DNA of 64,000 bases from Halovenus salina (GTDB lineage Archaea; Halobacteriota; Halobacteria; Halobacteriales; Haloarculaceae). The translations under genes and the position numbers were made by a program. Below the pieces are notes generated by a model that had not been told where the DNA came from, did not search any database, and saw only the letters and a list, made by a program, of their open reading frames with translations. Shown here piece after piece: positions 8,972 through 63,994 of this stretch. The stretch is from NCBI RefSeq assembly GCF_026410925.1, contig NZ_CP112974.1:1-64000 (forward strand), given 5' to 3'. Within the stretch, counting starts at the first letter, position 1. The number at the start of each line of letters is the position of its first letter.

Positions 8972-8978
8972 TTCGTCG

Positions 8979-25500: not shown

Positions 25501-26866
25501 TGAGGAAGCGGATGATGATTACGTAACAGTACGTAGTCAAGAAGACGGTGAGGAGTGGACACTCGAAACAGAGCTATTGAAACCTCTATTAAAGGGAGAA
25601 GATGTTCATCGGTATTATCCTCTCAACCCGAATTATTTTGTTATCTTTCCTTACTTATTGAGTGACACGGATGATGGGAGAGACGCTGAATTTGTCACAG
25701 AGGATGTGCTTGCAGAAAATTATCCCCGAACATATGATTATCTAAAGTCACATGAAGAATCGATCCGAGCAAGAGAAAGTGGTAAAATGGATCGTGATGG
25801 TTGGTATGATTATGTATATCCAAAAAACCTGACTGAATTCGAAGAAGAAAAAATACTGACGCCTGAGATTAGTTATGGAACGAACTTTACTTACGACTCT
25901 GACGGATTATACCACAAGACAAAGGTGTATGGTATAAAAACTAACGACAGCTATGTTAGTGAGAAATATCTCCTTCCAATCATTAATACCGATGTACTCT
26001 GGTACTTTTTGAAGAATACAGGATATGCTCTTCGTGGAGGGTATTTCACATTCAAAACTGATTATTTGAATCCTTTTTCGATACCCATTCCGTCTAACGA
26101 TTCTACAGATTTCGACAAAGAACACTTCGTATCGAATTACGAGGGATATGTCTCGGGAAGTGATACTCTTGAGACGTTCGATATTGATGAAATAATAACG
26201 GGGGCAAATGAGGCCCTTCCAGAATTAGCTAACGAAATGATAGCTCTCCGTGATAATCGTGAATCACTTAATCTGTCTCTTCTTGACTATCTCGGCTCTT
26301 ACTCAGAAGAGACTACTCTTGCAGATATTGGCTTTACACAACCACCACAGGGATCAGCTGATTCAATTCTTCAAGAGACGACAGAGCAGAAACCAAACCT
26401 CCGTCTCGGTGAGGTCACTGTTTCCCGTGAATCCGATACAACGGTCGAAATCCGATTGACTGCTCGCTACAAGCCCGACGACGAGGATGCGTATGAAACC
26501 GACCAATGGGGCTATACTGAGACTGACCCACTGCCTGCACTCCGAATCACGGATCTCACCGAAACCGAGGCGGACCTGATTGAGGCGTTCGTCCCGGTTG
26601 CTGTTGACGAGGCAGGCGGATTCGCAAACTTCCGTGAGACTGCGACGAAGACGAATTCGCTGGTTGACCGGCTACGGAAACTGACATTGCCTGCCGTCGA
26701 TGAAGTTCGTGAGGGCTTGGAGAGCTACATTGCGACCAAAGAACGAGCTGAGGAACTGGAGGCCAAGATTGAGAAGACTGACGAGCTAATCGATGAGATT
26801 GTCTACGAGCTGTACGGACTCACCGACGAGGAAATCGAGATTGTGCAAGAAGCGGTCAGCGAATGA
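22592..26866 (+). CDS. Type IIG restriction-modification protein (Eco57I-like)
   Basis: A single 1424-residue chain that would cut and methylate DNA. The N-terminal nuclease-like part has AAAVLEAKQWD (ExK, about residue 128) and QIKYYLERTPERLQWGILTNGKKWRLY, as in type IIG enzymes. The methyltransferase core has GAYYTPDYVVNYIV (~483), SAM motif DPAMGSAHF (~539) and the adenine-specific catalytic NPPY (~785), so N6-adenine methylation is expected. The C-terminal part includes a target-recognition region (YQGLVTSGDSIYLL) and ends with a helical stretch. Bases ~24950-26390 are clearly richer in A and T than both ends, suggesting replacement of the recognition part. Pgl/BREX PglX is an alternative, but no BREX genes adjoin it. 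The frame is intact. Confidence 0.9.
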   Translation: MSQATLSPSPYRNSSLFSGYYLDERIDDLEEWDCDQEAHETFEELQRLWDEEGGLVAGYKEHALLGSWIDEVLDILGFGRQSETTIPRGNGYNDRLLFASEETRRDAAKRGLDGDTEAMYGMAAAVLEAKQWDVDFTKKFNEDRSYRDASHQIKYYLERTPERLQWGILTNGKKWRLYGTKDYATEVYYEVDLPELLESGDIEEFKYFYAFFRPDAFRETGGTTFLDRVWNESETAAQELGEDLQDNVFTALRVLGEGFIHTNDLNIDPDDAAARAELKEQSLVLLYRLMFVLYAESRGLIHPDDPDAQEEYDEHFSLDEVRLEIHDRITSGDSYDDWSGYATQIWGQLEDLFNLIDEGQENLGIPPYNGGLFNEEEHTFLADNEVADRYIAEVIHRLGTTENEEGEPVPADYADLDTRHLGSIYEGLLEHEFRIASEPYAAVAEDGGQVWKPGTEVSVAEAVETVEEGELYVVNDDGERKATGAYYTPDYVVNYIVEETVDPLLDEIRADLEADGLDPSDQEYFGRFYAEVQELKILDPAMGSAHFLTSATAYLTEQVMEIVREQERQGRNEQTIRRTIAKECIYGVDINGMAVELGKLSMWLETLAANKPLAFLDHHIKHGNSLVGSDISEVLSDDSEENGGQLTLTQSFAHARQQTLEHVMDLMEELLAIDNNDLADIKSMEELYDEIRDDPLYQRLFEIANVHTAEEFGLDIPEGVYEEMAGAIEDEGEWGEIRGNDWFKSAQAMADEEEFFHWELEFPEVFFGSDGDRLGGAGFDAIVGNPPYIRIQTLRNNTPQQASYFTSKYQSATGNFDIYANFTEKGEMLLGKNGILGYIEPHKFFQSDFGKGLREYLSKRKSLYKIVSFRHNQVFEGASVYTCLLFIRKAETTEFEYAEIPPEQLSMGENPSFRYIEADYDDNPWIFRDAQTEAILEKIADAGPDLETVTNRIYQGLVTSGDSIYLLEKIEEADDDYVTVRSQEDGEEWTLETELLKPLLKGEDVHRYYPLNPNYFVIFPYLLSDTDDGRDAEFVTEDVLAENYPRTYDYLKSHEESIRARESGKMDRDGWYDYVYPKNLTEFEEEKILTPEISYGTNFTYDSDGLYHKTKVYGIKTNDSYVSEKYLLPIINTDVLWYFLKNTGYALRGGYFTFKTDYLNPFSIPIPSNDSTDFDKEHFVSNYEGYVSGSDTLETFDIDEIITGANEALPELANEMIALRDNRESLNLSLLDYLGSYSEETTLADIGFTQPPQGSADSILQETTEQKPNLRLGEVTVSRESDTTVEIRLTARYKPDDEDAYETDQWGYTETDPLPALRITDLTETEADLIEAFVPVAVDEAGGFANFRETATKTNSLVDRLRKLTLPAVDEVREGLESYIATKERAEELEAKIEKTDELIDEIVYELYGLTDEEIEIVQEAVSE

Positions 26867-38474: not shown

Positions 38475-40586
38475 ATGAGTCGCCAGCACCCTCCAAATCT
38501 CTCTATCCAGCCCGAACAAGTCCATATCTGTCAAGAAGATAAATTAGTCAAGCGTGCCCGTCGAGCCCGTCAACCCACAGATATTGTGATCGCCCCTGAA
38601 CAGTTCCATCAGCGCAACCTCAAACGAGCCATTGCCAGCACAAACAAGCCGCGCAGTTCGCTTGCTTTGCTTACTCCAGTGACTGTTGCAACCGAGATTG
38701 TCACTGCGGAGCATACATATCCGACAGTCCTTGATCGAATGGACCGCCTCCGCTTGATTGAGGAGGCACTTGAGTCACAGCCCGCGGCAATTTCCCGTCT
38801 AACGCGAGTCTTTGGTTCGTCGATTGTTGACCAAGCGACGGAAATCGAAGCCGCTCGTGAAGAGCTCTCGGTACTGACGGGATACCAACCGTCGCGCCTC
38901 TCAGCACTTGAAACCGTCTGTAACGAAATCTCGACGGTCGCTTCGCAGGATGCACTGGATCTCCTTGTTGGAGTCCGTGATCTCCAAAAGCGGTTTCAGG
39001 AGCGACTCGAGGGATATGTCTCTGCTGAGTCAGTTGTGAGACACAGTTGCGAACTGCTTGTTGAGTCCGACGGCGATGCGTGGCCCGACATGTACGCTGA
39101 CATCGAGCGTGTCAACGTTGTCGGAATCAGTACGTTAGGCACGCCCTTGCTCGAATTTCTGCGCGCACTTGAGCGAACGACCTCGGTCACGGTCCACCTG
39201 TATCTCCGCGCCCAGACCGGCCCCCGAATCGCAGACCGACTCCCTGCTCGGCTCCAAGACTCGCCAACGCATCACAATGTCAAGACTCCCTCGGGGGCCC
39301 CACCACAACTTGCGAAATGGCTAACTACGCCAGCAACAGAGATTGTCGCGGAGACACGACAGCACGAAGCCCGGGTCGCGGTTGCACTCTGTGAGTCACT
39401 CCTCAGAGAAAGGGCCACCGTGAGTGAGATTGCTATTGTCGCTCGGGATATCGATCAGTACGAACAGCCACTGACACGCGCGGCAAGTTCCTACGGGCGG
39501 CATCTCTCAGTCTGGACGCAACTGGAACTAACCCGAACACTGCCGTACAGACTGCTGACAGCAACCTGTTCGGTACTGGCTGCTGAGGCGACCGGTCAGG
39601 TCGATACCGAAACACTGTTTCGCCCACTCACCTGCTATTGGCTAGATCCAGAAGCTGAAGATGGACACGGTAATCCGCCGTCACTGTTGACGCCAGCGGA
39701 ACTCAGTGATCTTCGACGCACACTCGGTGCCAATTATTCTGGCTCTCTGCAAGCGTGGCGTGATCACCTTGACGCCACACCATCGGTTGCACCCAGTGTC
39801 CGGCGCCGTCTACAGCGTTATCTCGAGTGGTGTCACCACCATTCGAGTTCTCCACAACCGGACGATATCCTCTCTGTTCTCGGCCCTGTTATCGATAGGT
39901 TTGAACAGGTTGTCTTGCCTGGTATCGAGCGACGAGATACTGCCGCGTACACGGAAACCTCACGTGCTGGGCGGGCCGTACAGCGTATTGCTGGCGATGA
40001 CGATGGTGAACACCTGCTTCGAGAGGCCCGAGAAAAGTTCAGCAGGTGGCGTGACCGCCATCAGATCGAGGCCTCGTGGGCCACAGTCCAAGAGGTGATC
40101 GAAACCATCGCAACAGCACGCCCGGGCCGGCGGGAACACGATAATGCGGAACGAATCGATGTTCTCGACGCGACTGACACATGGCTGCGGTCGTATCCAT
40201 TTGTTATTGCTATGGGCTTCGTCGACGGCTGCTGGCCTCAACAACCCCACGGGATGTTTCCGCTTGAACTGCGAACTGCAGTCGTCCGCGGTGACTCACC
40301 TCAGGCTCGCCGTCTCGGTATCCGAGGCGCATGGACCGAACAACGAGACTATGATCACGCTGCTGATGCAATCCGTACGGCGACAACGCATTTGATTGCA
40401 ACTCGGTTTACCGAGGATATCGAGGGTGTGCGTTATCAGCGGTCGCCGCTGCTCGATGAGATTCCGACGACAGAAATCAGTGACCAGGCATATCATCACC
40501 TCATAGGGCCAGATGCAGTTCTGCCGGGTCACATCCGCGAGTCACTGGCTGGAAGGACCCCTCCAGAGGGGAGTGATCGACGATGA
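38475..40586 (+). CDS. AddB/RecC-like inactive helicase subunit
   Basis: A 703-residue protein without a Walker A loop, but with the layout of AddB/RexB-type helicase-fold subunits: RLIEEALESQ in the N-terminal half, VVGISTLGTPLLEFLRAL, the block ARVAVALCESLLRERATVSE with IAIVARDIDQYEQPL, and late IAMGFVDGCWPQQPHGMFPL, which corresponds to the helicase motif near 'GxxDGxxP'. No C-terminal nuclease Cys cluster is apparent, so it is more AddB-like scaffold than nuclease. Its stop overlaps the next gene's ATG (ATGA). It probably forms a two-subunit DNA-end-processing machine with the next protein. Confidence 0.7.
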   Translation: MSRQHPPNLSIQPEQVHICQEDKLVKRARRARQPTDIVIAPEQFHQRNLKRAIASTNKPRSSLALLTPVTVATEIVTAEHTYPTVLDRMDRLRLIEEALESQPAAISRLTRVFGSSIVDQATEIEAAREELSVLTGYQPSRLSALETVCNEISTVASQDALDLLVGVRDLQKRFQERLEGYVSAESVVRHSCELLVESDGDAWPDMYADIERVNVVGISTLGTPLLEFLRALERTTSVTVHLYLRAQTGPRIADRLPARLQDSPTHHNVKTPSGAPPQLAKWLTTPATEIVAETRQHEARVAVALCESLLRERATVSEIAIVARDIDQYEQPLTRAASSYGRHLSVWTQLELTRTLPYRLLTATCSVLAAEATGQVDTETLFRPLTCYWLDPEAEDGHGNPPSLLTPAELSDLRRTLGANYSGSLQAWRDHLDATPSVAPSVRRRLQRYLEWCHHHSSSPQPDDILSVLGPVIDRFEQVVLPGIERRDTAAYTETSRAGRAVQRIAGDDDGEHLLREAREKFSRWRDRHQIEASWATVQEVIETIATARPGRREHDNAERIDVLDATDTWLRSYPFVIAMGFVDGCWPQQPHGMFPLELRTAVVRGDSPQARRLGIRGAWTEQRDYDHAADAIRTATTHLIATRFTEDIEGVRYQRSPLLDEIPTTEISDQAYHHLIGPDAVLPGHIRESLAGRTPPEGSDRR

Positions 40587-43500
40587 GTGACACCGTGCCT
40601 CCACTTGAGGGAACGCAGGCGAGGATCCGCGAGGAGTATTTTGAACACGATTCCGGACTGTTTGTCTTGGATTGTAAGCCTGGCTTCGGCAAGTCCACGA
40701 CGCTAAATGAGATTGCCGCTGAAACACTCGTTCGAGCCGATGCAGCGGGAGAACAGTGTCCCGAACAACAGCTCTGTGTCGTTTCCTTTTCCCGTGAAGA
40801 CGCAGCCAGCATCGAGCCAGGAATCAAAGACGCACTCGATGCGTTCGCGGCGGATACTACGGGAACGTATCCTGTCGACATATCTGTACAGACGGCTCGG
40901 CGACTCAAGCGACGGCTCCAGTTGACAGACCAAATCGGAACGATTGATAGCGTACTACGGAGTATCTTCGAAGATATCGCAGCAGAACTGGGCTTCGATG
41001 GGATGCCGAGTGTCGGGAACACATCACAGCTATCACTCCTTCGTCAACAGTGTATGGCATCAATCCGTACAGACGAATCCTACGCGCGGCAGTGTCAGCG
41101 TCTTGATGCTGCATATCCGCCTGAGGACGATGCAGACGGTGATCGTCTCCATGGACTGCTCGAGAACGCTCGCGCCAAGAAACGTGATCGACGACTTTCG
41201 ACTGCCGAATTCGAGAGTCGCCTCCGAGCAACTATCGATGATGTCTATCCCAATGGGCCACCACAGACCCGTGCAGACCTGCTTGCCGATATTAGTGCAT
41301 TCTACAGCGACGCTGTCGCCGCAGAGTTTGAGCAGACACTCCCAGCCGACCAGACGACGACGAGCGAGGCCGTCCTGAACGATCAGGATTGCTATCAGGA
41401 ATGGCACAGTTGTGTCGATGATTTCTGTACTCTCTTGGATGCGTACGAACGAGCGTACGACGACGCCTGTCGCAAGCAGGGCGTGGTCTCGCATGCAGAC
41501 ATTGCCTACTGGATCGCCGAGTACTTCGACCGAACCCTAACTGACGTAACAGGTGCAAGCCAGCAGACAGCAGAGGCATACCGAGACAGAGTACAACGTC
41601 GATACGCGACCAAGTTCCAGTCGCTGATTATTGACGAAGCACAGGATATTTCCATTGCACAACACGACGCTCTCGCCCCATTCGTAAGCGAGCAGACCCG
41701 GGTTCTGATGGCTGGTGATGTCGACCAATGTATCTACGTCTGGCGGAATGCACGGCCAGAGCAATTCGGCACTGCTTTCGACGGTGGTGAGTACTTCGGG
41801 ACGAACTGGTCAGTCCATCACTCCTATTCGGGATCTCAGACGTATCGGATGCGTCCAGACATCGCTACGGCAGTCGACACGATATTTGGAGACGTATTTA
41901 CCGATCTGAGCCGTGGTGGGGGTGAAACCGTCACAGCAACCACAGAATACACGCCGTTGAATGCGAGACGATCTGCTTCAGCAGATCCGGCCGTACACGT
42001 TGCGGCATATTCACGGCCGGCCGACCCGCCAGGGACACCGGACTGGTTTGAAGCTGAGCAGACGCCGCTGGCGAATTACCTTGCTGGCGGAATTGCAGAC
42101 GGCACGCTCGATGTCAACACGGATGGCGATGACACGATAACGGTGCTGTTCTCACGCCGATTGAATATGGATGCGTTAGAAGCACAGTTGAGCAGTCGAG
42201 GATTATCCGTCGTCAACGCAAGCGCCCATCTGTTCGAGAATCCACTCGTCACACTCATCTGTCGGGTCGTCTGGTGGCTTGTCGATCCATATGACCCTGA
42301 ACGGACCCGTGAGTTCATCCACTCAGAGTGCCTTCCCCTCTCTGCAGAAAGTACCGCTCTATTCAAAGATGTCGAGTATCGGATTGATGAGATCAGCGAA
42401 CGCATTGAATCCGAAGGCCGAACAGCAACTGAAGATGGATTCATAGCTGGGCTGGAAACACTTGCTCACCGCCGCGGACGGCAGACGGCTGATCCAGCCG
42501 AGGTATTTGTCGAAAAAATAATCGAAACCTTGTGCCTGCGTGCGGATCCACTCGATCAGAATAATGCACCAGACCAGCGACTGGCAGCCTGCGATGCACT
42601 GCTGTCGTTGATTGCCGACTGGGAAAGTGACGACAGATATACTGTCGAGGAACTGGCCAAGATTCTGGAAGGCTACGTCCAGAACCCCACGGATGGGATT
42701 GTACTCCCAGTGTCGAACCCCGAACAGTACGATGTCATATTTCGAACGATCCACAATATGAAGGGTGACGAAGACGATGTCGTCTGTGTCGCAGATCTGA
42801 GCGGTTCGATAACTTATTATGGACCCCAAAATGAGACGTTCCTCGCCTTTGGGGAGACGTTGGCGCTTGCACCGCCGGAAACAGTCTCGCGGACAGACCT
42901 CACACCAAGCGATCAGGGGCCGACACAGCAGAACTACGGCTCGCTTCGATGGGCGAGTGATGTCTGGATAGATGGGCAAATTGCCGGCGCACCATCCCTT
43001 AGTGACGTAAGTCAGCGATACTGTGCAGAGCAGTGGCGGCTACTGTACGTGGCACTTTCACGGGCGCGCGATCATCTTGTCATCTCCCTGCCTTCACAAT
43101 GCTACCATACGGACCCGAACGACGCATGGAGTGCAACAATCGCTGATGCACTCTCAACTGATCAAAGCCCGTCAAGAGGCCAGTACGAGATACCGGCCCT
43201 GTACACAAAACACCAAGACACACTCACTGTCGGCATTAACGACGTGACATTTCCAAAGGAGACGACAGACCAGACGAATCAGCCGACACCACGCTCCGCT
43301 CAACCACCAGCCGACAACAAAGCCGGATGGACAAGTCGGTACATTAACGGGACATCACTGTACCAACTGACCTCCAACACAGACAAGTCGACACTGCCCC
43401 ATATCATGGGGCGGCGGCCAGAAATCAACACTGTTGGGAGTACTGCAACCGAAATGGACCTCCCTAGCGGGATCAAGCCAGAACAGCTGGGAATTGTCAC

Positions 43501-44056
43501 GCACCGAGTTTTAACAACTGCTGTCTCACGAGATGTCTCAACAACAGCACTCGAATCGTTCACCCAGCCGCTGCCAGCAATCCTCAGAGAGGGTATCGCA
43601 GAGCTGCAGACTCACATCCCACCAGAGGTTCACGAGTCGATCCAGGTGTACCTCCGTGAGGAAATTTGTCCCCAGTTTGTCCAGAGCGACGCTTGGCAGC
43701 AGATTCAGCAAGCAACGACCTGCTACGTTGAAGAACCACTTGATGCAGTGCTGGACATTGAGGGGATAGCGATCGAGACCCAAAATCGAGCCGATATCAT
43801 CTCCGTTCTCCCTTGGAGAGAATGGGCCATTCACGAACTCAAACTGGCCCATAGCCCCATAGACTCACAGACGAAAAAACAGCATCAACTGCAGACTGCG
43901 TTCTATGCTTGGGTACTAGAACAGCAACTGCCTGCAGACTGTTCTGTGACTGCACAGCTGACGTATTTAGGTAACTCAGTGGAGTCAGCTAGGGTCTCTC
44001 CGCCTGTTGTCCCAATTCCGGAGTGGGTCACGCGATTAGTCGAAGTGTCGCCGTGA
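40583..44056 (+). CDS. AddA-like UvrD helicase fused to PD-(D/E)XK nuclease
   Basis: An 1157-residue protein. The SF1A helicase has Walker A CKPGFGKSTTLNEI (~residue 33), Walker B LIIDEAQDISIAQHD, motif III AGDVDQCIYVWRNA and motif VI region LLYVALSRARDHLVISLP. The C-terminal 300 residues form a RecB-family nuclease with RADIISVLPWREWAIHELKLAH (D-x13-ELK) and the following QTAFYAWVLEQQ (QxxxY). This is the architecture of AddA/RecB, which resects double-strand breaks and destroys foreign linear DNA. Translationally coupled to the AddB-like gene. Convergent with the zinc-ribbon gene that ends six bases away. Confidence 0.88.
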   Translation: MSDTVPPLEGTQARIREEYFEHDSGLFVLDCKPGFGKSTTLNEIAAETLVRADAAGEQCPEQQLCVVSFSREDAASIEPGIKDALDAFAADTTGTYPVDISVQTARRLKRRLQLTDQIGTIDSVLRSIFEDIAAELGFDGMPSVGNTSQLSLLRQQCMASIRTDESYARQCQRLDAAYPPEDDADGDRLHGLLENARAKKRDRRLSTAEFESRLRATIDDVYPNGPPQTRADLLADISAFYSDAVAAEFEQTLPADQTTTSEAVLNDQDCYQEWHSCVDDFCTLLDAYERAYDDACRKQGVVSHADIAYWIAEYFDRTLTDVTGASQQTAEAYRDRVQRRYATKFQSLIIDEAQDISIAQHDALAPFVSEQTRVLMAGDVDQCIYVWRNARPEQFGTAFDGGEYFGTNWSVHHSYSGSQTYRMRPDIATAVDTIFGDVFTDLSRGGGETVTATTEYTPLNARRSASADPAVHVAAYSRPADPPGTPDWFEAEQTPLANYLAGGIADGTLDVNTDGDDTITVLFSRRLNMDALEAQLSSRGLSVVNASAHLFENPLVTLICRVVWWLVDPYDPERTREFIHSECLPLSAESTALFKDVEYRIDEISERIESEGRTATEDGFIAGLETLAHRRGRQTADPAEVFVEKIIETLCLRADPLDQNNAPDQRLAACDALLSLIADWESDDRYTVEELAKILEGYVQNPTDGIVLPVSNPEQYDVIFRTIHNMKGDEDDVVCVADLSGSITYYGPQNETFLAFGETLALAPPETVSRTDLTPSDQGPTQQNYGSLRWASDVWIDGQIAGAPSLSDVSQRYCAEQWRLLYVALSRARDHLVISLPSQCYHTDPNDAWSATIADALSTDQSPSRGQYEIPALYTKHQDTLTVGINDVTFPKETTDQTNQPTPRSAQPPADNKAGWTSRYINGTSLYQLTSNTDKSTLPHIMGRRPEINTVGSTATEMDLPSGIKPEQLGIVTHRVLTTAVSRDVSTTALESFTQPLPAILREGIAELQTHIPPEVHESIQVYLREEICPQFVQSDAWQQIQQATTCYVEEPLDAVLDIEGIAIETQNRADIISVLPWREWAIHELKLAHSPIDSQTKKQHQLQTAFYAWVLEQQLPADCSVTAQLTYLGNSVESARVSPPVVPIPEWVTRLVEVSP

Positions 44057-54032: not shown

Positions 54033-54163
54033 CTAGAACCAATCGCTAGTGAGTACGCTGACACGGCTGCATAATAGTCTCGACGACGCTCTACGATCTT
54101 CGACCACTCGTACTTTGAGAAGCGAGTGGTTATTAGTACGATACAGCCTTCAGAGAAACACGA

Positions 54164-55255
54164 ATGGTCCATCTCGCTCAGATCGACGCTCCTCCCCGGG
54201 ATGACGGTCTCGAAAAGGCGATCCAGGACCGACTCGCCGATCTCGATTCGGGCAAGTACAAGCGCAACAACGCACACGTGCTACGACTCTGTGCTGAGTG
54301 GCTGCGACGAGAACGTGGTGTGAACAGAGTCGAAGAGATCACCAGTCAGGACCTTCGCCAGTTTGCCCGTGCACTGCGAGAGTGTATGGACGACGAAAAG
54401 TCGAATATCAACGCTGGCAGTACCGTCACCCAGTACTACGACTACGTCGCTGCCTGGCTGGGATGGGCTGTACGTGACCAGTACCTCGACCGCAACCCTG
54501 CCAGAACAGAGACAGCCACCGAACCACTTCCCGAAGTCTCGACCGACCCAGACCGACAGTTCTGGAGTGACCGAGAACGTGAGGCTATCTGTGCAACCAC
54601 AGACCAGCTCGTCGACGTTGCACTCGACAATCCCGATGAACAGGCCCGTCGGCAAGCCTACCGTGACCGCGCGCTCGTCTATCTGCTGGCCTACAGTGGG
54701 TGTCGCGGTGCAGAGATTGCTGCCGTCAACGACGATGAGAAACGCAATGGCCTCCGCTGGTCAGACCTGAATCTCGACGACGGCATCATATCCGTGTACG
54801 GGAAAAGCCGCGAGTGGGAGGAAGCACCCCTGTTCGAGCCAGCGATTGAACCACTCCGGCGCTGGAAGCAACTGCTCAATCCCGTGGGCGATGACTGGCC
54901 CGTGCTGCCGACAATGCACCTCCCCACACTCTATGGAGAACTACCGACCGATGTCAAGACATCACCAGACACCGTCTGGGATGATCTTCGAGATCACGAG
55001 TTGTGTCCTCCGTCGTTGGGTACCGACGGCGTCCGCCGAATTGTGAAACGTCTTTGCGCAGACTCTCAGTACGAGTTTGCCACGCCACTCAAACCCCACG
55101 GCGCACGTCGTGGGCTTGGCGACACGCTCTACCGAGAACAGGCTGAGCTCGCACAAGATGCGCTCCGACACAAAAGCATCGAGACGACCCACGAATCCTA
55201 CAGCGAAGAACGAACTCGGCGGGTGAAAGAACGCGGTGACGAACTCTTCGAGTAG
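54164..55255 (+). CDS. Tyrosine recombinase/integrase
   Basis: A 363-residue integrase. SAM-like core-binding N-terminal half (ADLDSGKYKRNNAHVLRLCA), then catalytic residues in order: Arg in YSGCRGAEIAAV, Lys in YGKSREWEEAP, HxxR in KPHGARRGLGDT, His in LRHKSIETTHE and Tyr in SYSEERTRR. All five are present, so it should be active. Its upstream 30 bases closely match those before the pseudogene copy at 50483, showing a local duplication. No tRNA or obvious attachment site adjoins it. Confidence 0.92.
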   Translation: MVHLAQIDAPPRDDGLEKAIQDRLADLDSGKYKRNNAHVLRLCAEWLRRERGVNRVEEITSQDLRQFARALRECMDDEKSNINAGSTVTQYYDYVAAWLGWAVRDQYLDRNPARTETATEPLPEVSTDPDRQFWSDREREAICATTDQLVDVALDNPDEQARRQAYRDRALVYLLAYSGCRGAEIAAVNDDEKRNGLRWSDLNLDDGIISVYGKSREWEEAPLFEPAIEPLRRWKQLLNPVGDDWPVLPTMHLPTLYGELPTDVKTSPDTVWDDLRDHELCPPSLGTDGVRRIVKRLCADSQYEFATPLKPHGARRGLGDTLYREQAELAQDALRHKSIETTHESYSEERTRRVKERGDELFE

Positions 55256-55838
55256 TTAGTACTACTTCTCTTAGGTGAGCGATTGTTGGTAGAGAGTAGG
55301 TGGGCGATTTCGCGGTGACGTGCGCTCAACTGCGCGACTTAGAAGCCGGGTACATTCGTCTTTAGCTACGCTGGACAAGCCGTGTGAAGGCTGCTCTGGC
55401 AGAGTACTGAATCGGTGTAACAGCTGTTCATATCAGACGGCAAGATGGGTTTCGCCCGTCCGGAATCTGAATCTGGATCTATTACGCCGCTGTCTTCCGA
55501 TTGGAGCGTTAGCTAAAGACGATTACCTAGTATTAAATTATAAATAATATGCGAATGAATGTCTAGGCGTCCTCGCTTGCCACCATGAGGACACCCCCCT
55601 ACCCCGTCGTTGATTGCCCACTTTCGGGGCAATTTTTGAAAACTGCTCATGAGTAGAGAGTTGTTGGTGACATCATAGCGCAGTTTTGAGGATGATCTGG
55701 AGTGCTTCATTACTCATAAAGACTAGCAGGGAGTGGTGTGCGACCCGTTCTATGACAGCCCCTGCTCAGTAGATGAGGGACAGACGCTGATCAGAGCGGA
55801 ACATCTATTCATCAGCCATCGCAACGCTGGAATCAGTC
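55256..55838. other. Non-coding stretch with an inverted-repeat element
   Basis: No supported gene. Contains inverted pair TCGTCTTTAGCTACGCT at 55356-55372 and AGCGTTAGCTAAAGACGA at 55505-55522, alike except for one base gap, making a ~167-bp MITE-like unit. At 55747-55760 GTTCTATGACAGCC resembles the inner end of the IS at 52962, probably an IS remnant. Confidence 0.5.
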
Positions 55839-56288
55839 ATGCATATCTCCAACGACTTGCTGTGTTTGTATTCGGCCACTATAACTGAGGAGGACGACAC
55901 ATATACGATTGAAGTGCCGAAGCGCGAGGTCGAACGCGGGAACATCCAGCGTGGAGAAATATACCGGGTGGCGCTTTTGTCTTCCATAGCCGATGCTCCC
56001 CCAGCAACCGGTGAACCGTCACCGGGCGAGTCAGCTGAACCCACGTCTGCTCGCCAGCACGGTGAACGAACACACGACCTACCTGTGTCGGAGGGGGAGA
56101 CACGTGAGGTTGAGATTGAAGGCCTCGGTGACCAAGGCGATGGGATTGCGAAAGTCGAACGCGGCTATGTCCTGATCGTCCCAGAGACAGACATCGGTGA
56201 CCGAGTGACCGTCCGTCTTCAACAAGTGCAAGAGAATGTCGGATTTGCTGAGGTCATCGAACGTCATCACGACGTCTCTACCCAGTGA
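55839..56288 (+). CDS. TRAM-domain protein
   Basis: A 149-residue protein. The N-terminal part (LYSATITEEDDTYTIEVPKR, REVERGNIQRGEIYRVALL) has the pattern seen in haloarchaeal TRAM proteins; the C-terminal TRAM domain has EVEIEGLGDQGDGIAKVERG, VLIVPETDIGDRVTVRLQQV and GFAEVIE. TRAM proteins bind RNA and may act as RNA chaperones. It stands alone, followed by the gene-poor region. Confidence 0.88.
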   Translation: MHISNDLLCLYSATITEEDDTYTIEVPKREVERGNIQRGEIYRVALLSSIADAPPATGEPSPGESAEPTSARQHGERTHDLPVSEGETREVEIEGLGDQGDGIAKVERGYVLIVPETDIGDRVTVRLQQVQENVGFAEVIERHHDVSTQ

Positions 56289-58765
56289 ATCGCCTCGAAG
56301 TCAAGTGGTTCGAGAGACTCCGTCTCTCGTCATCACGGAAGACTCGTCTTCCATACGACCCCGTGGCATTCGCTTTGACCGCCTGTAAATAGGGACACTC
56401 GCCGGTGGAGGTTCGCTCTCGTTGAAAACTCACATCGTCAGTCTGTCTCGGCGTTCACGCGGAGGTGGGATGCGAAGCTGGGGGATGGCGTAATCGTACG
56501 TCTGCATCGGTCTTGAGCTAAGCCTCACCTCTCGGTTGTGTGGCGGTAGCCAGTCTCTCCTGTAAGATTGGTCGTTGCTGCTGAATCTTCTGTGCCTCTT
56601 CGATCAGTCGCTCTAACAGCAGTGGCGGAGAGTATCCGAGAAACCCACCCAATTTGTAAACCAGAAGCGGGGCGTGCGACCGGTTGCGGACGCCGACGAC
56701 ACGGAACGTCTTCGTACTCTATCATCGCGTGCGCCCGCGTGTATCCTCCGTTGAAACTCTGCTTCGATCTCTACAGCAATATGCTTCAGTAGAGATCGTC
56801 CACGACATCCTGAATCTTCTTCGCCGATAAGCGTCTAGGTGGGTATCCGCTCGCACTCACAGAGAAGCCGTTTTTCCAAGGCCCCACCCATTGTGAAAGA
56901 GCTATTCGCTGAGTGATTTCTTCACATCAGTCGATGTCTCAGAAATACCGATTTGAGCTACCCATGAGTAACGTGAATAGCATGACTCACGTGACAACCG
57001 TGACAGACTCAACAATAGGGGGGCGGGGGCAATCCTATTTGCGGTTAGCAACAAGCATCCGAGTGTCGTAGGAAAGGCGACAGACGGGTGAAAGCCCGGC
57101 ACGCGGGAGGGCCGTCGCAACGTCCTCAACGTGTTCCGTAGCGAGTTCGTGAATGCTCTCTGTGAGGTTCCGTAATCTACCCATATCGCCAGAAGGCGTC
57201 CAAATCCCCTGAAATCAGCGATCAAATTCGCAGAGGGAACCGGGGTTCAACAGAGCAAGGAATGTCGTGGTAACCCCGGAGCGAGGACAGCACCGCAGCG
57301 AGGAGTGCAGGAGCGACCGAATGGAAGGAGGTCCGTGTCATCGGGTGGACCGCTACAGAAAATGAGCGCTCGGCGAGCGCAATGTGGAAACCGACCGGGC
57401 TTGGAGCGCCAGAGCCCCGAGCGCCGTCGAGGACACGCCCGCAGGCAAGCGAGCACCAGGGCAACGAGCACAGCACCGCAGGCCGCCCGCATAAGCATCC
57501 GTCGAGGACAGCACCACAGACGGTTCACCCCACAGAGGCTCGGAGGACAGCACCGGAGAGCCTCGATTGATAAGCGCGGTCGGAACCGGTGGCTCTCGTG
57601 CAGTGCTCGGGGTGGACCGCCCGGAGGCGACCCCGGCGCAGCTTGCTGCTCCTCATGTGTGGGTGCAGTTGGGTATGTGATGATGAAGTTGCGCCGAAGG
57701 CGGACCAGCGCCAGTTCATCTGGCGCGCACAGCGCGCGAGGGATGCGCGGATCGTGTTCGTTTGCGAAAGCTCGCCAACGGCGAGTGGTAGGATGCGATC
57801 TGGAAATCGGAGAAATGCGGCGTGATTCTGATGCTGAGCGGTGAGAGGCCAACGACCGCGTGGAGGAGGCCGACCAGCGGTGTTGTGCAGTAGCGAGTCG
57901 AACGACCGCGAGGAGAGAGACGATCAGCGGTGCTGTGCGATATCGAGGCCGACGACCCCGAGGAGGAGGACGACAAGCGGTTCTGTGAGGAAGAGTGACG
58001 GACGACCGACCTCGAGGGAGGACGCCGACGACGAGTCACGGGGATGCGAGCTGAAAATCGTAAGGACGTGGCGTGATGCTGTGCGTCAAGAGAGGCGGAC
58101 GACCGACCCAGAGGGAGGACGCCGATGGAGATAACGACGACGATGACGATGCTGTGATGGAGAGACCGACACGACGGAGGTCGACTGTTGTAGTAGTCGA
58201 GAGTGATAATAGAAAAGCGTGTGCGTGACAGTTGGAGTACGGCAGTAACAGCGAAGCTGGGCAATGAACACCTGGTGGACTGAAAGGGCGAGACGTGTTC
58301 GCGCCGTCGGAGAGTCGTCTGAGTGGCCACTATCTCCGAGTGTTGGCGGTTGACCGAGCAGATATGCCACTCAGCGACCGCGAACCCGTTGAGGGCTTTC
58401 AAGGCCGTCACTGCAACGCAACAAGAGGCTCTCCGCGTGTGATGAAAGGGGCGTGTCGTGAGCGCCCCGATGAGTGTGAGAAATGCCACAGTACGACCAA
58501 CAGTGTCAAGATAGCCATTCGGAGTCGACTGAATCGTGAGGAAGATCTACGCGTGAGTAACGCGCGATAATGGGTTCTGGTGTCTGTCCACGATTCGTGT
58601 CGTTCTCCGAATGCTCCGGAGAAATGGTCGCCTCGTGTAAGAGACCAATCGTTGAGTGTCCCGAGAGTAACGAGTACGATGATGCTATGCATCAAAGACG
58701 CTCGTCGTGAGAGACACTAGAAATATTTTGAGAGTTGACGATGAATGTAGCAGTGGAGGGATTGC
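56289..58765. other. Gene-poor region with decayed coding fragments and GC-rich imperfect repeats
   Basis: About 2.5 kb with no convincing gene. Fragments on the minus strand: 56518-56718 (open, no start; ...GGFLGYSPPLLLERLIEEAQ) and about 56787-56880 (GYPPRRLSAKKIQDVVDD) look like gene debris. 57245-57257 matches the MITE end (inverse TTGCTCTGTTGAA). From 57280 to 58200 several frames on both strands are open, but the DNA is repetitive: GAGGACAGCACC recurs at ~57283, 57503 and 57543, and a unit beginning GATGCGA.CTG.AAATCG recurs at ~57795 and ~58043. Large overlapping ORFs here are treated as chance. Confidence 0.6.
57035..57184 (-). CDS. Possible 49-residue protein in decayed region
   Basis: Minus-strand frame MGRLRNLTESIHELATEHVE then DVATALPRAGLSPVCRLSYD, ending at a TAG with further coding-like sequence after it in frame. 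Helical N-terminus and good codon bias suggest a real or recently real gene. No family recognised; it may be the start of a longer decayed gene that extends toward 56787. Confidence 0.35.
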   Translation of the reverse strand: MGRLRNLTESIHELATEHVEDVATALPRAGLSPVCRLSYDTRMLVANRK

Positions 58766-59389
58766 ATGAGTGAATCAGAAGACGTAGAACAAGAAGAACT
58801 GGACGATCAAGAGATGGAAGAGCTCAGCTAAGCCGATGAAACACGGAGCGAAGAGACGCCAGTGGACAACGAGTCAGGGAGCGAAGAGACAGCAGAAGAT
58901 CGTGAAGACAACGAAGACGAGGACGTTCTCAGTGGGTTTAATGATGACGTGTCCCTTGGACTCGAAGGCTCAAGCTACGTTAGATTCAGTCCAAAGGGCG
59001 AGAGGATATCCCCTAACTCCCACCTCTCACAGCGTCACCTCAGGGGCTACTACGCCTATACTATCCTCTACAACGAGAGCGAGAACGAGCTCTATCTGAA
59101 GACGCTCACGGAGGAAGAGACCGAACAATTGAGAGCAGAACGCCCTGGAGCAAAGATCAAAGAGATTGATCTGGAGGATAAGAACAGCGTCTCTGAGATG
59201 GCAATCAGAGAGATAGTGAGACAGTTCAGTATCAAAGACCAGTTCGATGATGAGCTGAGCATGCGCTATTATCCCGACTGGGATGATGAACGTGAGTGTG
59301 TCATCGTCGACCTGGACGAGGAGCCAAAGAAAGTTGGAAATAGAAACAACAACGACGACAGTGACGATGTAGAGTCCGTGGACGAGTAA
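58766..59389 (+). pseudogene. Acidic protein gene with an in-frame TAA at codon 22
   Basis: A clear ribosome site (GGAGGG, 58756-58761) precedes ATG at 58766, giving MSESEDVEQEELDDQEMEEL, then TAA at 58829-58831. The same frame continues without a gap as ADETRSEETPVDNESGSEE and a globular part (LRGYYAYTILYNESENELYL, ELSMRYYPDWDDERECVIVD) to 59389. A GTG at 58862 could restart translation, giving 175 residues. Composition is continuous across the stop, so the TAA is a recent mutation, a reading error or a readthrough site. No domain recognised. Confidence 0.65.
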
Positions 59390-60339
59390 GAAGACAACAA
59401 TGGTAGTGGTGTTCTGACACCGAAAGAAGAGAAGTATACAACAACAAGACGATTGCTCTGCTACCGAAGAAAGATAGCAAGAAGCCTCCAAAGACACTCC
59501 ACTACTATCCCCATCACCTTCTCAAAATACTGTGAGAAAAGTGGCGAGGTGAACAAAACAGAGCAGTCAAGGAACGAGCGTCACAGACATACGATACTGC
59601 CACACCCTCAGAAGAACGGGTGTGAACCATCCTAAGCGCCGGGCTGATCCCCGCGCTACATGCTCACTGGTTGGCGTCACACACGACTCCCACTCTCCTT
59701 CTACTCCCATCCCACCCCACCACTCACTCCCCGGCCAGCTCTATCGACCTGGCCGCCCGTGGCGGCCAGATCGAGAGGGGGGACCCACAGACCCAACGAA
59801 CGTTGGGTCGAGGACCGTCCCTCTCGTACGCGGACACAACACACTCGTGCAGGAACGCGACGATGGATACAGAGTCGGACAGTCACGAGACAGGCACCCG
59901 CTGATGCATCAGCGCAACAGCGGATTGAAGCGTCTGATGCATCAGCACAACACGAGTGTGTAGGCGGTCAGTGATGCATATGTGGCGCATATGAATCATC
60001 TGGCCCCGCAGTGTCCGCGCAACACGTCGAGAGAGCAGCCGCGGAGACCCCCTCAGAGGCACCCGGACTGTGCCGCTTGAACAGTCCCACAGCCCCCAGC
60101 CCCAGCTGGCGTCTGAACGAACCTGTTACTCTGTAAATAGATTGTTTGAGAAAGTGATCCTGAAATATGGCTAAATGCCAACTCAGGTGGGGGGTGTGAT
60201 GGTACGAAAATCGGCCAAATAACTGCCCCATATACCCCTCTCACGACCTTAGATTGCTTGGGCCAGCCTATAACGCGTTCTAAAACAGGCCCACAGATTC
60301 TCAAATCGCCGTTTCTGACGGTCTAATTATGTGAAAATA
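59390..60339. other. Non-coding palindrome-rich region beside the tandem array
   Basis: No supported gene; several short open frames on both strands look accidental. Holds strong palindromes: 59744-59774 (TCGA..CTGGCCGCC with inverse, 3-base loop), 59790-59809 (GACCCAACGAACGTTGGGTC), CTGATGCATCAG at 59902-59913 and again at 59935-59946, and CATATG pairs around 59980. May belong to an origin or partition locus (inference). Confidence 0.55.
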
Positions 60340-61080
60340 GTATACGCAATCATCGCTATTATTGAACTGCTCTGTGTACTGTGATTCTGTCGTATACGCA
60401 ATCGTCGCTATTATTGAACCGCTCTATGTCATGCGGTTATGTGGGTTATAGTTTCAGCACCAAACAGACAGGAAGATTATATTACCATGAACCATTTTTT
60501 GAATCGTATACGGAACCGTCGCTATTATTGAACCATGTCATGTACTGCGATTCTTTCGTATACGCAATCGTCGCTATTATTGAACTACTTTGAGTACTAC
60601 GATTATATTGATTAACTGGAGTAATGTACTTCAGACAGAATGAAAAATGCTCTACAGTAATCAAAAATTCGTATACGCAATCATCGCTATTATTGAACTG
60701 CGTTGTGTACGTCGGTTCTGTCGTATACGCAACCATCGCTATTATTGAACTACGTTGTGTGCCGTGATTATATTGATAAACAGTGGTAATGTATTTCAAA
60801 CAGAAAGAAAAATGTTTTGTGGTAATCAAAAAATAGTATACGCAATCATCGCTATTATTGAACTGTACTGAGTACTGCGATTATAGAGTATACGTAATCG
60901 TCGCTATTATTGAACTGTTTTGAGTACTTCGATTATATTGATTAATACAGGTAATGTATTTCGAACAGAATGAAAAATGTCCTGTGGTAATCAAAAATTC
61001 GTATACGCAACCGTCGCTATTATTGAACTGCTTTGTGTAGTGTGATTCTGTCGTATACGCAACCATCGCTATTATTGAAC
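60340..61080. repeat. Tandem array: ten 28-bp iteron-like motifs in ~165-bp units
   Basis: A 28-bp motif that begins GTATACGCAA and ends CGCTATTATTGAAC starts at 60340, 60392, 60506, 60558, 60671, 60723, 60836, 60888, 61001 and 61053. Distances alternate 52 and 113-114 throughout, so a ~165-bp unit with two motifs is repeated about 4.5 times. The long spacers are themselves related (GATTATATTGATTAA and GGTAATGTATTTC recur), unlike CRISPR spacers. The array is AT-rich and ends 176 bases from the 3' end of the PriL-like gene, fitting a replication origin or incompatibility/partition site. Confidence 0.92.
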
Positions 61081-61256
61081 TGTACTGTGTATTGCGATGA
61101 TAGCAATTACCTATGATAATATGCCATTATTGGGGTCATTTTCCGCCTATACAAGAAATTATTGCTGGTTGTTGAGTGAGTTGGCTGCCTCTATGAGCAC
61201 CTCCTCAGAACCCGCTCCAAAACTCCGCTTGGAACCTCCACACCAACCCGAAAAAA

Positions 61257-62810
61257 CTACCGCCGACCGTACCCGTCGTCGTCCTCGCTCAGTCGGTTGT
61301 ACACATCGTCGCTGAAATTCAGACTTTGGTAGATCGAGTAGTCACAATTTTCTCGTCCGATACACACATCTTCGAAGTTGCGATTGTCGTTGTTACAGCC
61401 AACCGGCAACGGTGACTCACCTCCGATGTCTTGCTTCTTCTCGTACCGGACTTGATAGTCCGTTACCTTCTCTCGATACCAGGGGTACTGCGAGAACCAC
61501 TCTTTGATATCTTCGACGCTGAAGTCTGTCTCCAATTCCAGGATGATACGAACCATGCTGAATAGGTACCACCGCCGTGGCGCTGAGTCCGACATAGCCA
61601 TCTCGTGAATGTTTTGCATACACGGGAGTTCCAGTAGGTCTTCAAGCTCAGTCACTTCGACAACCTTCGCGTTCGACTTGTGGTACTCAATCAGATATTC
61701 GTTCGGGTCAACGTGAGTGTCCACCTCCACATTGTCCACGTCGCTATCGTTCGCCAGATCAACGAGTACCATCCCAACTCCTTGGGGAGAGGTCAACCCT
61801 TCGAGTGTCTTCTTCACCCAGTCAATGTCAGTCGCCCCGTGGAAGATACTCGTCGCTCGTGCAATCTGTTTGCTGGTCAGCGGCTCACCAAATGCTGCCA
61901 CTTCTGAGTCCACGTGGTCTATCGCTAGCAGGATCGCTTTCAACTTCGGCGGGTACCGGTGGGCTTTGAACACTTTGTCTGCTTCGCCGTACTCAATCCA
62001 CTCCGCGATTTTGTTATTGATTCCCGTGAGCGCATCACGGTAGGTGTCCAGTTTGTCTTCCGGAATATTGTCGTAGACGATTTCTTCTAGACACCGCGCC
62101 ACACCACTCCGCCCGAAGAATGCGTCCCGATACTTTTCGACGTGATCCGAGAGGGGAACGTAGACGTACTTCCCCCTGATGATGGATTGGATGTCGCCAC
62201 CTGGCTTGTTGTCCTTCCGGGCTTCGCAATGCCGGTTCGCGTGAGCCAATGGCACCTTGAAGAATTTTGCATCTCCCAGTGGTTCGAGTGTGTCAATCCC
62301 TTCGACTGGCTCACCAGCTGGTGGGCCGTACTCATCTTCCTTATCTCGGTTGTAGACAACCGTCCCCAGAGCTGTGTATATCTCGTCACCATGCTCTGAG
62401 GTACGGGCCGCCCGGTAGACATTATTGAGATAGTATTCGTGCAGCCGCTCATGGATGATGCAGTCGCGGCTGTCCTTCTGTATCTTCGGGTGTCGCTGGA
62501 CCAGCACTGAACCGAATGTCATGAGTAGCATGAGCCGACCGGGGTCTGGATTCGTGAGGTCAATGTCCGTTGCATCTTCAGGGTCGGACTCACCCGCAAG
62601 CATTTCATCCAGTTCTGGCTCTTGGAAGGCACAGGCAGTGAACTCCGCCACGTCGTTGATCATCGCTTTCTCGTTTGCCTCCCCGTTCGTGCTATAGTAC
62701 TGTGCGCCCCGCTCAAGCAGGAGCCGCCGATTCAGTTTCGAATGGTTGCGCGGATTGACTGCCACCTGCCATGCACGGACCACGTTTTTCGTGGGGTCTT
62801 TTGTCACCAT
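61257..62810 (-). CDS. PriL-like primase subunit with Fe-S type C-terminal domain
   Basis: A 517-residue protein. The N-terminal 300 residues are unassigned, mostly helical. The C-terminal 150 residues resemble the primase large-subunit Fe-S domain: Cys in LELPCMQNIHEMAMSD, then RRWYLFSMVRIILELETDFS, FSQYPWYREKVTDYQVRYE, and three more Cys in PVGCNNDNRNF, DVCIGRE and NCDYSIYQSL. Four Cys with this surrounding pattern match the cluster ligands of PriL. It overlaps the PriS-like gene by seven bases, so the two form a plasmid or viral primase pair. Likely primes replication at the neighbouring array. Confidence 0.72.
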   Translation of the reverse strand: MVTKDPTKNVVRAWQVAVNPRNHSKLNRRLLLERGAQYYSTNGEANEKAMINDVAEFTACAFQEPELDEMLAGESDPEDATDIDLTNPDPGRLMLLMTFGSVLVQRHPKIQKDSRDCIIHERLHEYYLNNVYRAARTSEHGDEIYTALGTVVYNRDKEDEYGPPAGEPVEGIDTLEPLGDAKFFKVPLAHANRHCEARKDNKPGGDIQSIIRGKYVYVPLSDHVEKYRDAFFGRSGVARCLEEIVYDNIPEDKLDTYRDALTGINNKIAEWIEYGEADKVFKAHRYPPKLKAILLAIDHVDSEVAAFGEPLTSKQIARATSIFHGATDIDWVKKTLEGLTSPQGVGMVLVDLANDSDVDNVEVDTHVDPNEYLIEYHKSNAKVVEVTELEDLLELPCMQNIHEMAMSDSAPRRWYLFSMVRIILELETDFSVEDIKEWFSQYPWYREKVTDYQVRYEKKQDIGGESPLPVGCNNDNRNFEDVCIGRENCDYSIYQSLNFSDDVYNRLSEDDDGYGRR

Positions 62811-63319
62811 TGAATCTCACTCTCGTTGTTGCGTATCGACTCAGGAAGTGCTGGCTCCTCAATGAAGTTGAAGTCTCGCTTGCTTATTGGCGTGACAATT
62901 CTGTTGACCTCTGTGTGCAGACTGTATGGGAGCCGGATAACACGTGACCGATCCCAGGTGACTTCATCGTCAATCGGAAAGCCAAGTCGCTCGTTGATGT
63001 ATCGGCCAATATACTTGCGAGACTGGTGAGTCAATTTGAGGTAAGGGTCATCCGACTTCGCAAAGATGTGGACTCCCTGGCCACTGTAGAAGACATCCGC
63101 ACTGTCGAAGCCAACGGTGTCGGTTAGCCAGTCTCGAATCTCGAAACCGTTGTGGATGGCTTTGCGGATGTCTTGAAACTCGTATGCGTATTCGTTGGTG
63201 ACCGTCTCTGAGACAGTTCGCTCAGCGGCCTCAGATTCGTCGCTGTCCGATTTCTCGTCTGCGATGGTCAGTGGGACATCTGTCTCGGCATCGACTGCAT
63301 CTGCACGGGGTACTGCCAC
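62804..63319 (-). CDS. PriS-like archaeo-eukaryotic primase, N-terminus unclear
   Basis: The 171-residue frame has the primase-family blocks DVFYSGQGVHIFAKSDDP (SGxGxH) and DRSRVIRLPYSLHTEVNRIV (RxIRLPxSLH), which define archaeo-eukaryotic primases. The early DxD metal motif of this fold is not visible. Coding-like sequence (RRRPFGIPLAPIEEEHLREH) continues upstream in the same frame up to the stop of the HNH gene at 63419, but has no usual start codon; GTG at 63319 is the first. So the N-terminal part is either missing, started at a rare codon, or separated from the HNH gene by a stop. Confidence 0.75.
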   Translation of the reverse strand: MAVPRADAVDAETDVPLTIADEKSDSDESEAAERTVSETVTNEYAYEFQDIRKAIHNGFEIRDWLTDTVGFDSADVFYSGQGVHIFAKSDDPYLKLTHQSRKYIGRYINERLGFPIDDEVTWDRSRVIRLPYSLHTEVNRIVTPISKRDFNFIEEPALPESIRNNESEIQW

Positions 63320-63418
63320 TGGAGCAGGCTCAGAGGAGAATACATTGTGCTCTCGCAGATGCTCTTCCTCGATAGGGGCAAGTGGAATTCCAAAGGGACG
63401 CCGTCGTGAATTACCGAC

Positions 63419-63994
63419 TTACACCGACAACGCCGCGAGAAGCCACTCATCCTCCACTGTATCCAAGACGACCGACGTCGTCAACGTCTGGGAGAGCAGT
63501 GCGAACAATTCCATCTGATTCATCGTCAAATTGTATCGACTCACCACCGTCTCTACCAACCCTTCCAGTGTCTCGTGATCGCTGACCACCTGCTCACGAA
63601 TTGCCAACCGCGTCAGTTGCAGGTCGTGTTTGTTCTTCAGCCCCAACTGCTGTGCTCGCCAGTCTTGTGTGCCGTCTCGTCCCTCACCTGTGATTCCTTT
63701 GTGACACGCACGACACAGACAAATCCCCTGGTCTGGATCACGATGCCAGTGGTGGTAGTCGAACATCTCAATACCAAACTCCGGGAGTGATCGCCGACAC
63801 AGCGGGCAGCTGACTTCCCATTCCCACCCAAACTGCTTTGCCTGCTTCGTGTACTCCTCAGTGTACTCTTCCGTTCGAGGGTACGATTCACCAGTCATGA
63901 TTCCCGTCCACAGATGCCGATCCCAGTAGCCCGTCGTCACCGACTCTAACTGATCGACACTCGGTGCCGTCTCCAATGAAGTCGCAATCGCCAC
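63419..63994 (-). CDS. HNH endonuclease-type protein
   Basis: A 191-residue protein with a zinc-bound HNH module: CPLCRRSLPEFGI, FDYHHWHRDPDQG and CLCRACHKGITGEG, i.e. two CxxC pairs around HH and the final His. GTG at 63994 is used, but the frame may continue beyond the window edge. The C-terminal half is helical (LAIREQVVSDHETLEGLVET). It ends at a TAA after LLAALSV, and the primase frame continues in register behind it. HNH proteins at such loci often nick DNA; here the role is open. Confidence 0.75.
   Translation of the reverse strand: MAIATSLETAPSVDQLESVTTGYWDRHLWTGIMTGESYPRTEEYTEEYTKQAKQFGWEWEVSCPLCRRSLPEFGIEMFDYHHWHRDPDQGICLCRACHKGITGEGRDGTQDWRAQQLGLKNKHDLQLTRLAIREQVVSDHETLEGLVETVVSRYNLTMNQMELFALLSQTLTTSVVLDTVEDEWLLAALSV

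Follow-up and report, generated by a model that had tools for sequence, protein, structure and literature searches.

Beside a PriL-like gene on a plasmid contig of Halovenus salina (C3, NZ_CP112974.1), short DNA motifs recur in pairs at almost invariant distances, and the question is what such an array does for the replicon that carries it. The stretch analysed here, called the window, comprises the first 64,000 nucleotides of this contig. Tentatively, we regard the array as a maintenance site linked to the primase-associated protein (PAP) encoded next to it, whose most likely role is to initiate replication or load a primosome. The strongest result is a geometry that stays fixed while the sequence is replaceable, which is absent from the first-pass annotation of this DNA. 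The features of the locus are listed in the table.

Table. Features of the array locus in the window and nuclease-like frames at related arrays
Feature	Position	Strand	Basis or remark
Tyrosine recombinase, XerC-like	54164-55255	+	Phage_integrase E=2.5e-12; TIGR02224 E=3.3e-13, under cut-off
G-rich segment (35% G, 25% C), far side of array	57000-58700		base composition
Acidic protein frame pointing at array	58766-59389	+	in-frame stop near start on C3; intact, 218 aa, on C4
Left flank of array	60130-60339		4 differences in 210 bp between C3 and C4
Site array, ten 28-bp motifs in five pairs	60340-61080	+	motif match, Tandem Repeats Finder, C3/C4 alignment
PAP, 517 aa, PriL-like C-terminus	61257-62810	-	NF038197
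Truncated PriS-like gene, C-terminal part only	62804-63319 (open frame from 63418)	-	Pfam, NCBIfam, alignment to KK48 PriS
Nuclease-like protein frames	L103:10167-12166; L105:8820-11363; L090:5043-7033; L148:13077-13985		

Ten copies of the motif GTATACGCAAYCRTCGCTATTATTGAAC were found in the array with at most one mismatch, all on the forward strand, and none in 100 shuffles. Successive motifs are spaced by 52, 114, 52, 113, 52, 113, 52, 113 and 52 bp, that is 52 bp within a pair and 166, 165, 165 and 165 bp from pair to pair. Tandem Repeats Finder reported a period of 165 (3.5 copies, score 748, 60504-61081). Both the strict alternation of 52 and 113-114 bp and the ~165-bp unit with two motifs, as first described, are thereby borne out. 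The accompanying claim that both spacings approach whole helical turns holds for 52 bp (4.95 turns at 10.5 bp) and fails for 113-114 bp, because the latter corresponds to ~10.8 turns at 10.5 bp per turn. By eye, the 86-bp spacer of the first unit diverges most among the four long spacers and the three 85-bp ones are alike, as had been noted. The recent expansion read from this pattern is doubtful, because the array of a second plasmid shares the ten-motif layout and yet differs at 63 of 741 positions. The array lies between the convergent frames of the acidic protein and PAP, and the PAP stop codon is 176 bp away on C3 and 175 bp on the second plasmid. G+C content around the array is 31-43% (250-bp bins), compared to ~54% in much of the window.

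This second array, with ten motifs and identical spacing, was found on a further plasmid contig in the assembly (C4:56315-57055). It lies within two adjoining blocks that are 96.3% identical to window 54071-56342 and 94.8% identical to 56564-63640. Between C3 and C4 the motifs diverge less than the spacers (10/280 versus 53/461 positions, p=1e-4). The PAP proteins are 98.6% identical and the Orc1/Cdc6 proteins 42.7%. Both contigs are untrimmed circles: on C3, positions 1-33902 are repeated at 101843-135744 (99.9% identity), leaving a plasmid of ~101.8 kb, and the last 30.3 kb of C4 repeat its start (99.9% identity; plasmid ~86.7 kb). These duplicated ends (~34 and ~30 kb) inflate the assembly size and gene counts. 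It is likely that the two plasmids reside in one cell; they may also stem from a strain mixture, given the contamination estimate of 6.84 for the assembly.

The gene next to the array encodes a full-length member of the PAP family (NCBIfam NF038197, E=7e-89, 298.8 bits at a cut-off of 100, residues 11-511 of 517). Four C-terminal cysteines (C397, C472, C483 and C489), which characterize PriL, are invariant in 43 aligned sequences. PriL models match weakly and below cut-off, with E=0.029 and 13.7 bits (cut-off 439) for the window PAP and E=3.6e-8 and 33.4 bits (cut-off 339) for PAP of H. aquaticum; Pfam PriL matches two of the 43 members (best 5.4e-5). Because of the invariant cysteines and these sub-cut-off matches the C-terminus is called PriL-like. 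No DNA-binding domain was found in PAP by NCBIfam, Pfam and solved-structure profile searches. As judged from codon substitutions, PAP is under strong purifying selection (dN/dS between C3 and C4 0.067), which is weaker on the PriS remnant (0.17). This remnant matches Pfam DNA_primase_S with E=9.5e-4 and 20 bits, under the cut-off of 26.8, and NCBIfam PriS models with E down to 7.4e-11, all under their cut-offs. Its match to the PriS protein of Salinibaculum KK48 begins at residue 196, and the N-terminal 175 residues of KK48 PriS matched nothing on C3 and C4 at better than E=4. The catalytic half of PriS carries the DxD motif. Since the N-terminal half is absent from both plasmids, the locus encodes no working split primase. 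The PriL/PriS-like pair proposed at first reading is therefore correct for the adjoining PriL-like gene, a full PAP, and wrong for the "split primase", in which PriS lacks its N-terminal catalytic half.

The closest relatives of the window PAP (32-36% identity) have AT-rich noncoding DNA with evenly placed sites 3' of PAP or of a PAP remnant. Nine further arrays of four sites each were identified, seven with the site CTATAG-N5-CTATAG and two, in Halococcus, with another. Counted from the PAP side wherever PAP or a remnant is known, the CTATAG sites are spaced 154/166/166 bp on the KK48 plasmid and in each of two KK48 chromosomal arrays, 154/165/166 in a third (same order assumed), 154/166/165 on the H. 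aquaticum chromosome, 154/165/165 in genome G102 and 155/165/166 in genome G217, where PAP is missing. The arrays of Halococcus morrhuae and H. thailandensis, with the site TGTTNAC-N4-TGTTNAC, are spaced 153/176/156 bp. At their second site an overlapping third half-site follows 11 bp further on, with which the split would be 164/165; their fourth site is weaker and emerged from a search with a motif derived from the other three. The span from first to last site is 484-486 bp in all nine arrays. The spacings of 153-156, 165-166 and 176 bp differ by ~11 bp, which would fit one helical turn. Compared to these arrays, the window array has five units and each site is doubled at +52.

When five of the seven CTATAG arrays were aligned pairwise between KK48, H. 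aquaticum and G102, 46-48 of 48 hexamer positions were identical compared to 46-52% elsewhere, and the same alignments contained just 2-3 gap columns in ~650. This reads as the pattern of selection on the sites and on the distance between them. Because the geometry is conserved while site and spacer sequences turn over, the arrays are to be regarded, on this comparative evidence, as a putative nucleoprotein scaffold. Neutral leftovers, that is tandem-duplicated repeats drifting along with the neighbouring gene, could account for the deviating unit 1 of the window array next to the similar units 2-4, as in tandem duplication, and for those arrays that lie beside a decayed PAP. We consider this highly improbable in view of the conserved sites against a background of ~50%, the constant span in nine arrays, its persistence (485 bp) in Halococcus with another site sequence, and the lower divergence of motifs than spacers between C3 and C4.

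Scanning without a preset motif for three sites ~165 bp apart gave scores of at least 14/29 and beat all 150 shuffles at nine of nine loci (C3, C4 and seven of the nine relatives; G217 and the third KK48 chromosomal array were left out). None of 18 other PAP loci, drawn from those listed for the genomes of the order, scored above 13/26. Five of them (L064, L070, L073, L080 and L081) beat all ten of their own shuffles by small margins, and shuffles elsewhere also reach 13/26. Inspection of L080 and L081 revealed nothing comparable, and an array in the wider PAP family at these loci was rejected.

The sites are confined to the arrays. In four genomes chosen because they hold arrays (~13.8 Mb), all CTATAG sites with at most one mismatch fall within four-site arrays: 16 in the four arrays of KK48 and four each in H. 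aquaticum, G102 and G217. The window motif was found, with up to three mismatches, in one of 392 genomes of the order, namely the source genome, and nowhere in its own assembly outside the two PAP-linked arrays. A solo site that might betray an autoregulated binder was therefore rejected for these four genomes and for the assembly. Dispersal of the motif over many replicons without a primase, named in the first-pass annotation as speaking against its reading, was not observed; in relatives, some arrays with other site sequences lack an intact PAP beside them. The 392 genomes were drawn evenly, so that any rarity is estimated from a sample; KK48 and H. aquaticum were reached through the family search. 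Two of the 392 genomes matched the exact two-site CTATAG pattern. A separate screen with an exact 12-mer was too insensitive and missed G102 and Halococcus. PAP itself is widespread among plasmids of haloarchaea, with 83 PLSDB records and 93 of the 392 genomes. PAP relatives were not found in viral contigs; in genome contigs a single-protein query found none and an alignment query six loci. The array DNA had no match among plasmids and phages, and the motif core hit 17 stretches of viral contigs by one 15-mer each, which was rejected as an array. Rfam searches of seven loci and profile searches of solved structures gave no match. Among the open-licence PMC titles and abstracts listed on archaeal primase plasmids, haloarchaeal minimal replicons, centromeres, PriL-type plasmids and evenly spaced palindromes, none describes such an array, and "primase-associated protein" in that literature refers, by title and abstract, to herpesvirus subjects.

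Four arrays, three on the KK48 chromosome and the one in G217, have no intact PAP beside them and keep their sites and spacing. Across KK48, PAP was matched three times, once in full on the plasmid and twice as a C-terminal remnant on the chromosome, compared to three chromosomal arrays. No PAP was found in the 15 kb around the G217 array, and two matches lie on other contigs of this genome. It is possible that PAP acts in trans on these arrays, from the plasmid in KK48 and from the other contigs in G217. Among nine testable array loci, PriS is intact only on the KK48 plasmid and truncated on C3 and C4. At the other six, in G102, H. morrhuae, H. aquaticum, G217 and two KK48 chromosomal copies, a search of the retrieved stretches with E up to 0.01 revealed no PriS; H. 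thailandensis was left out, as its contig begins inside PAP. Two of the KK48 chromosomal arrays (G444:C1:2608924-2609425 and 2617772-2618274) lie 8.8 kb apart in a 1.8-kb duplication that is 86% identical.

It is unlikely that the array is the only origin of C3 or C4, because both plasmids encode Orc1/Cdc6 with ORB-like inverted repeats around it and have their GC-skew minimum near Orc1. On C3 this gene (69034-70296) lies ~8 kb from the array and has its own ORB-like repeats. Orc1 is encoded away from the array on all six PAP plasmids examined (C3, C4, KK48 and three of the wider family). The skew minima, expected at the array by the first-pass annotation, are at 72.5 kb (C3) and 44.5 kb (C4), 1.6-2.2 kb from Orc1; block shuffles reached the skew range in 19 of 500 cases on C3, where skew is weak, and in 2 of 500 on C4. 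On the KK48 plasmid it is the single skew maximum, not a minimum, that is 4 kb from the array (0 of 500 shuffles reach the range), and with the adjacent G-rich segment masked this maximum comes to lie at ~9 kb on the other side. This tentatively suggests a switch in strand asymmetry near the array; judged by the sign on C3 and C4, such a switch would mark a terminus and not an origin. On none of the three plasmids does skew support an origin at the array. The coexistence of two near-identical arrays in one assembly also argues against a sole origin, which would usually not tolerate two near-identical copies together.

We infer a role in replication that is compatible with a separate Orc1 locus. 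In this proposal the array would act in cis to maintain haloarchaeal plasmids and integrative elements of one family, whose common core is PAP. A sequence-specific protein, in the simplest case PAP, would bind the bipartite sites ~165 bp apart; at 11 bp per turn this distance is ~15 turns and would place the bound units on one face of the DNA, where they may loop or wrap into one complex. The complex could then load the host primase or replisome at the AT-rich DNA beside the array, providing a second start that is independent of Orc1 or assists it. The replication reading is the most likely one in view of the link to PAP, the AT-rich DNA, the order Orc1, transposase gene, PAP and array in H. 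morrhuae, and the precedent of pRN1 discussed below.

Bacterial iteron origins and the centromeres of plasmids use repeated sites, in helical phase with one another, to nucleate a protein complex, and the array resembles them in this respect. Iterons are spaced by ~20-40 bp compared to ~165 bp here, and the array differs further in that the site sequence changes between lineages while the spacing stays. With the Orc1/Cdc6-ORB origins of haloarchaea, as outlined in PMC3528665, the array shares AT-rich noncoding DNA, repeated sites and an adjacent replication gene; in contrast to them it has no adjacent Orc1, which on both plasmids lies at a separate locus with ORB-like inverted repeats. The archaeal plasmid pRN1, in the account of PMC4234260, requires an origin element just 3' of its replication gene, and the array likewise directly follows a primase-family gene, 176 bp from the PAP stop. 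However, pRN1 encodes a primase-helicase, PAP being PriL-like instead, and uses a 100-nt stem-loop (PMC4234260). No such stem-loop was found at the window array (fold z -0.91 for 61060-61256, reverse strand; -0.17 for 60340-61080 and -1.69 for 60100-60340, forward strand). PolpTN2-like primases, as presented in PMC3973330 and PMC5862659, are mobile-element proteins with a PriL-type C-terminal region like PAP, but PolpTN2 fuses a PriS domain whereas PAP is a separate protein.

The main rival, which we consider unlikely, is a centromere-like partition or pairing site, where the bound protein tethers or pairs plasmid copies and the fixed spacing builds a compact segregation complex. It would fit sites used nowhere else in the searched genomes, large and presumably low-copy plasmids, and the ParA gene ~8 kb from the array in H. 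morrhuae. However, ParA-family matches (PF13614) lie ~41 kb (C3) and ~29 kb (C4) away, so that this is not a standard ParA-adjacent centromere. Furthermore, no neighbour protein among those compared is common to all array loci, two plasmids whose arrays are near-identical should interfere when they coexist, and arrays occur on chromosomes too. The initial description as an iteron origin or centromere of a primase-type replicon therefore stands in part: a cis-acting-looking array of constrained geometry beside a PriL-like gene on plasmids is retained, and the split primase, the sole origin and the ParA-adjacent centromere are not.

A nuclease-like protein (by eye; no Pfam match over cut-off) adjoins the arrays of H. 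aquaticum, G102, KK48 copy L105 and G217. It was rejected as general binder, since it was not found at the other loci searched. At three of the four, a BrxC/D-like ATPase lies next to it (Pfam E=1.4e-16 in H. aquaticum). By eye, G-rich DNA following the KK48 and H. aquaticum arrays resembles the G-rich segment of the window.

Tyrosine recombinases occur near several arrays, which fits integrative elements and keeps alive a reading as processing or regulation site, used in excision, resolution or transfer via the recombinase or a transfer apparatus. The gene in the window lies within a 9.6-kb stretch common to C3 and C4; such a gene or part of it was found within ~7 kb of the array on C3, C4, G217 and two KK48 chromosomal copies; near the G102 array lies a protein distantly related to the G217 recombinase (30%, E=1e-31; Pfam match below cut-off). 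VirB4, ATP-binding or DUF87 genes upstream of PAP, on the KK48 plasmid and two annotated plasmids of the wider family, and the survival of arrays without PAP point the same way. This reading is nevertheless quite improbable: no recombinase is annotated in 40 kb around the KK48 plasmid array, the one on C3 is ~5 kb off, and no transfer gene was found among the scanned window frames, which cover part of the plasmid. The span and spacing of the array are also unlike att core sites.

The PAP-linked maintenance site might even represent an undescribed class that is set by its geometry, although we regard this broader claim as rather doubtful. Four bipartite sites, here five and doubled, would form a ~165-bp ruler; a PriL-like initiator without catalytic partner would pass the site to the host primase, and the recognition sequence would be swapped between lineages while the ~485-bp span is kept in the four-site form. 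The conserved ruler, found next to one branch of the PAP family, offers a concrete handle on the role of PAP, and the arrays, with similar geometry and three site sequences, form a natural series on how fixed distances build DNA complexes.

Elsewhere in the window, positions 38475-44056 contain two paired genes, the second encoding a UvrD helicase with a PD-(D/E)XK domain; on C4, its relative is located immediately upstream of the PriS-PAP-array module. The window also encodes a 1424-aa Eco57I-type restriction-modification methylase (22592-26866) and a region with a heavy-metal ATPase and a multicopper oxidase (6323-11617).
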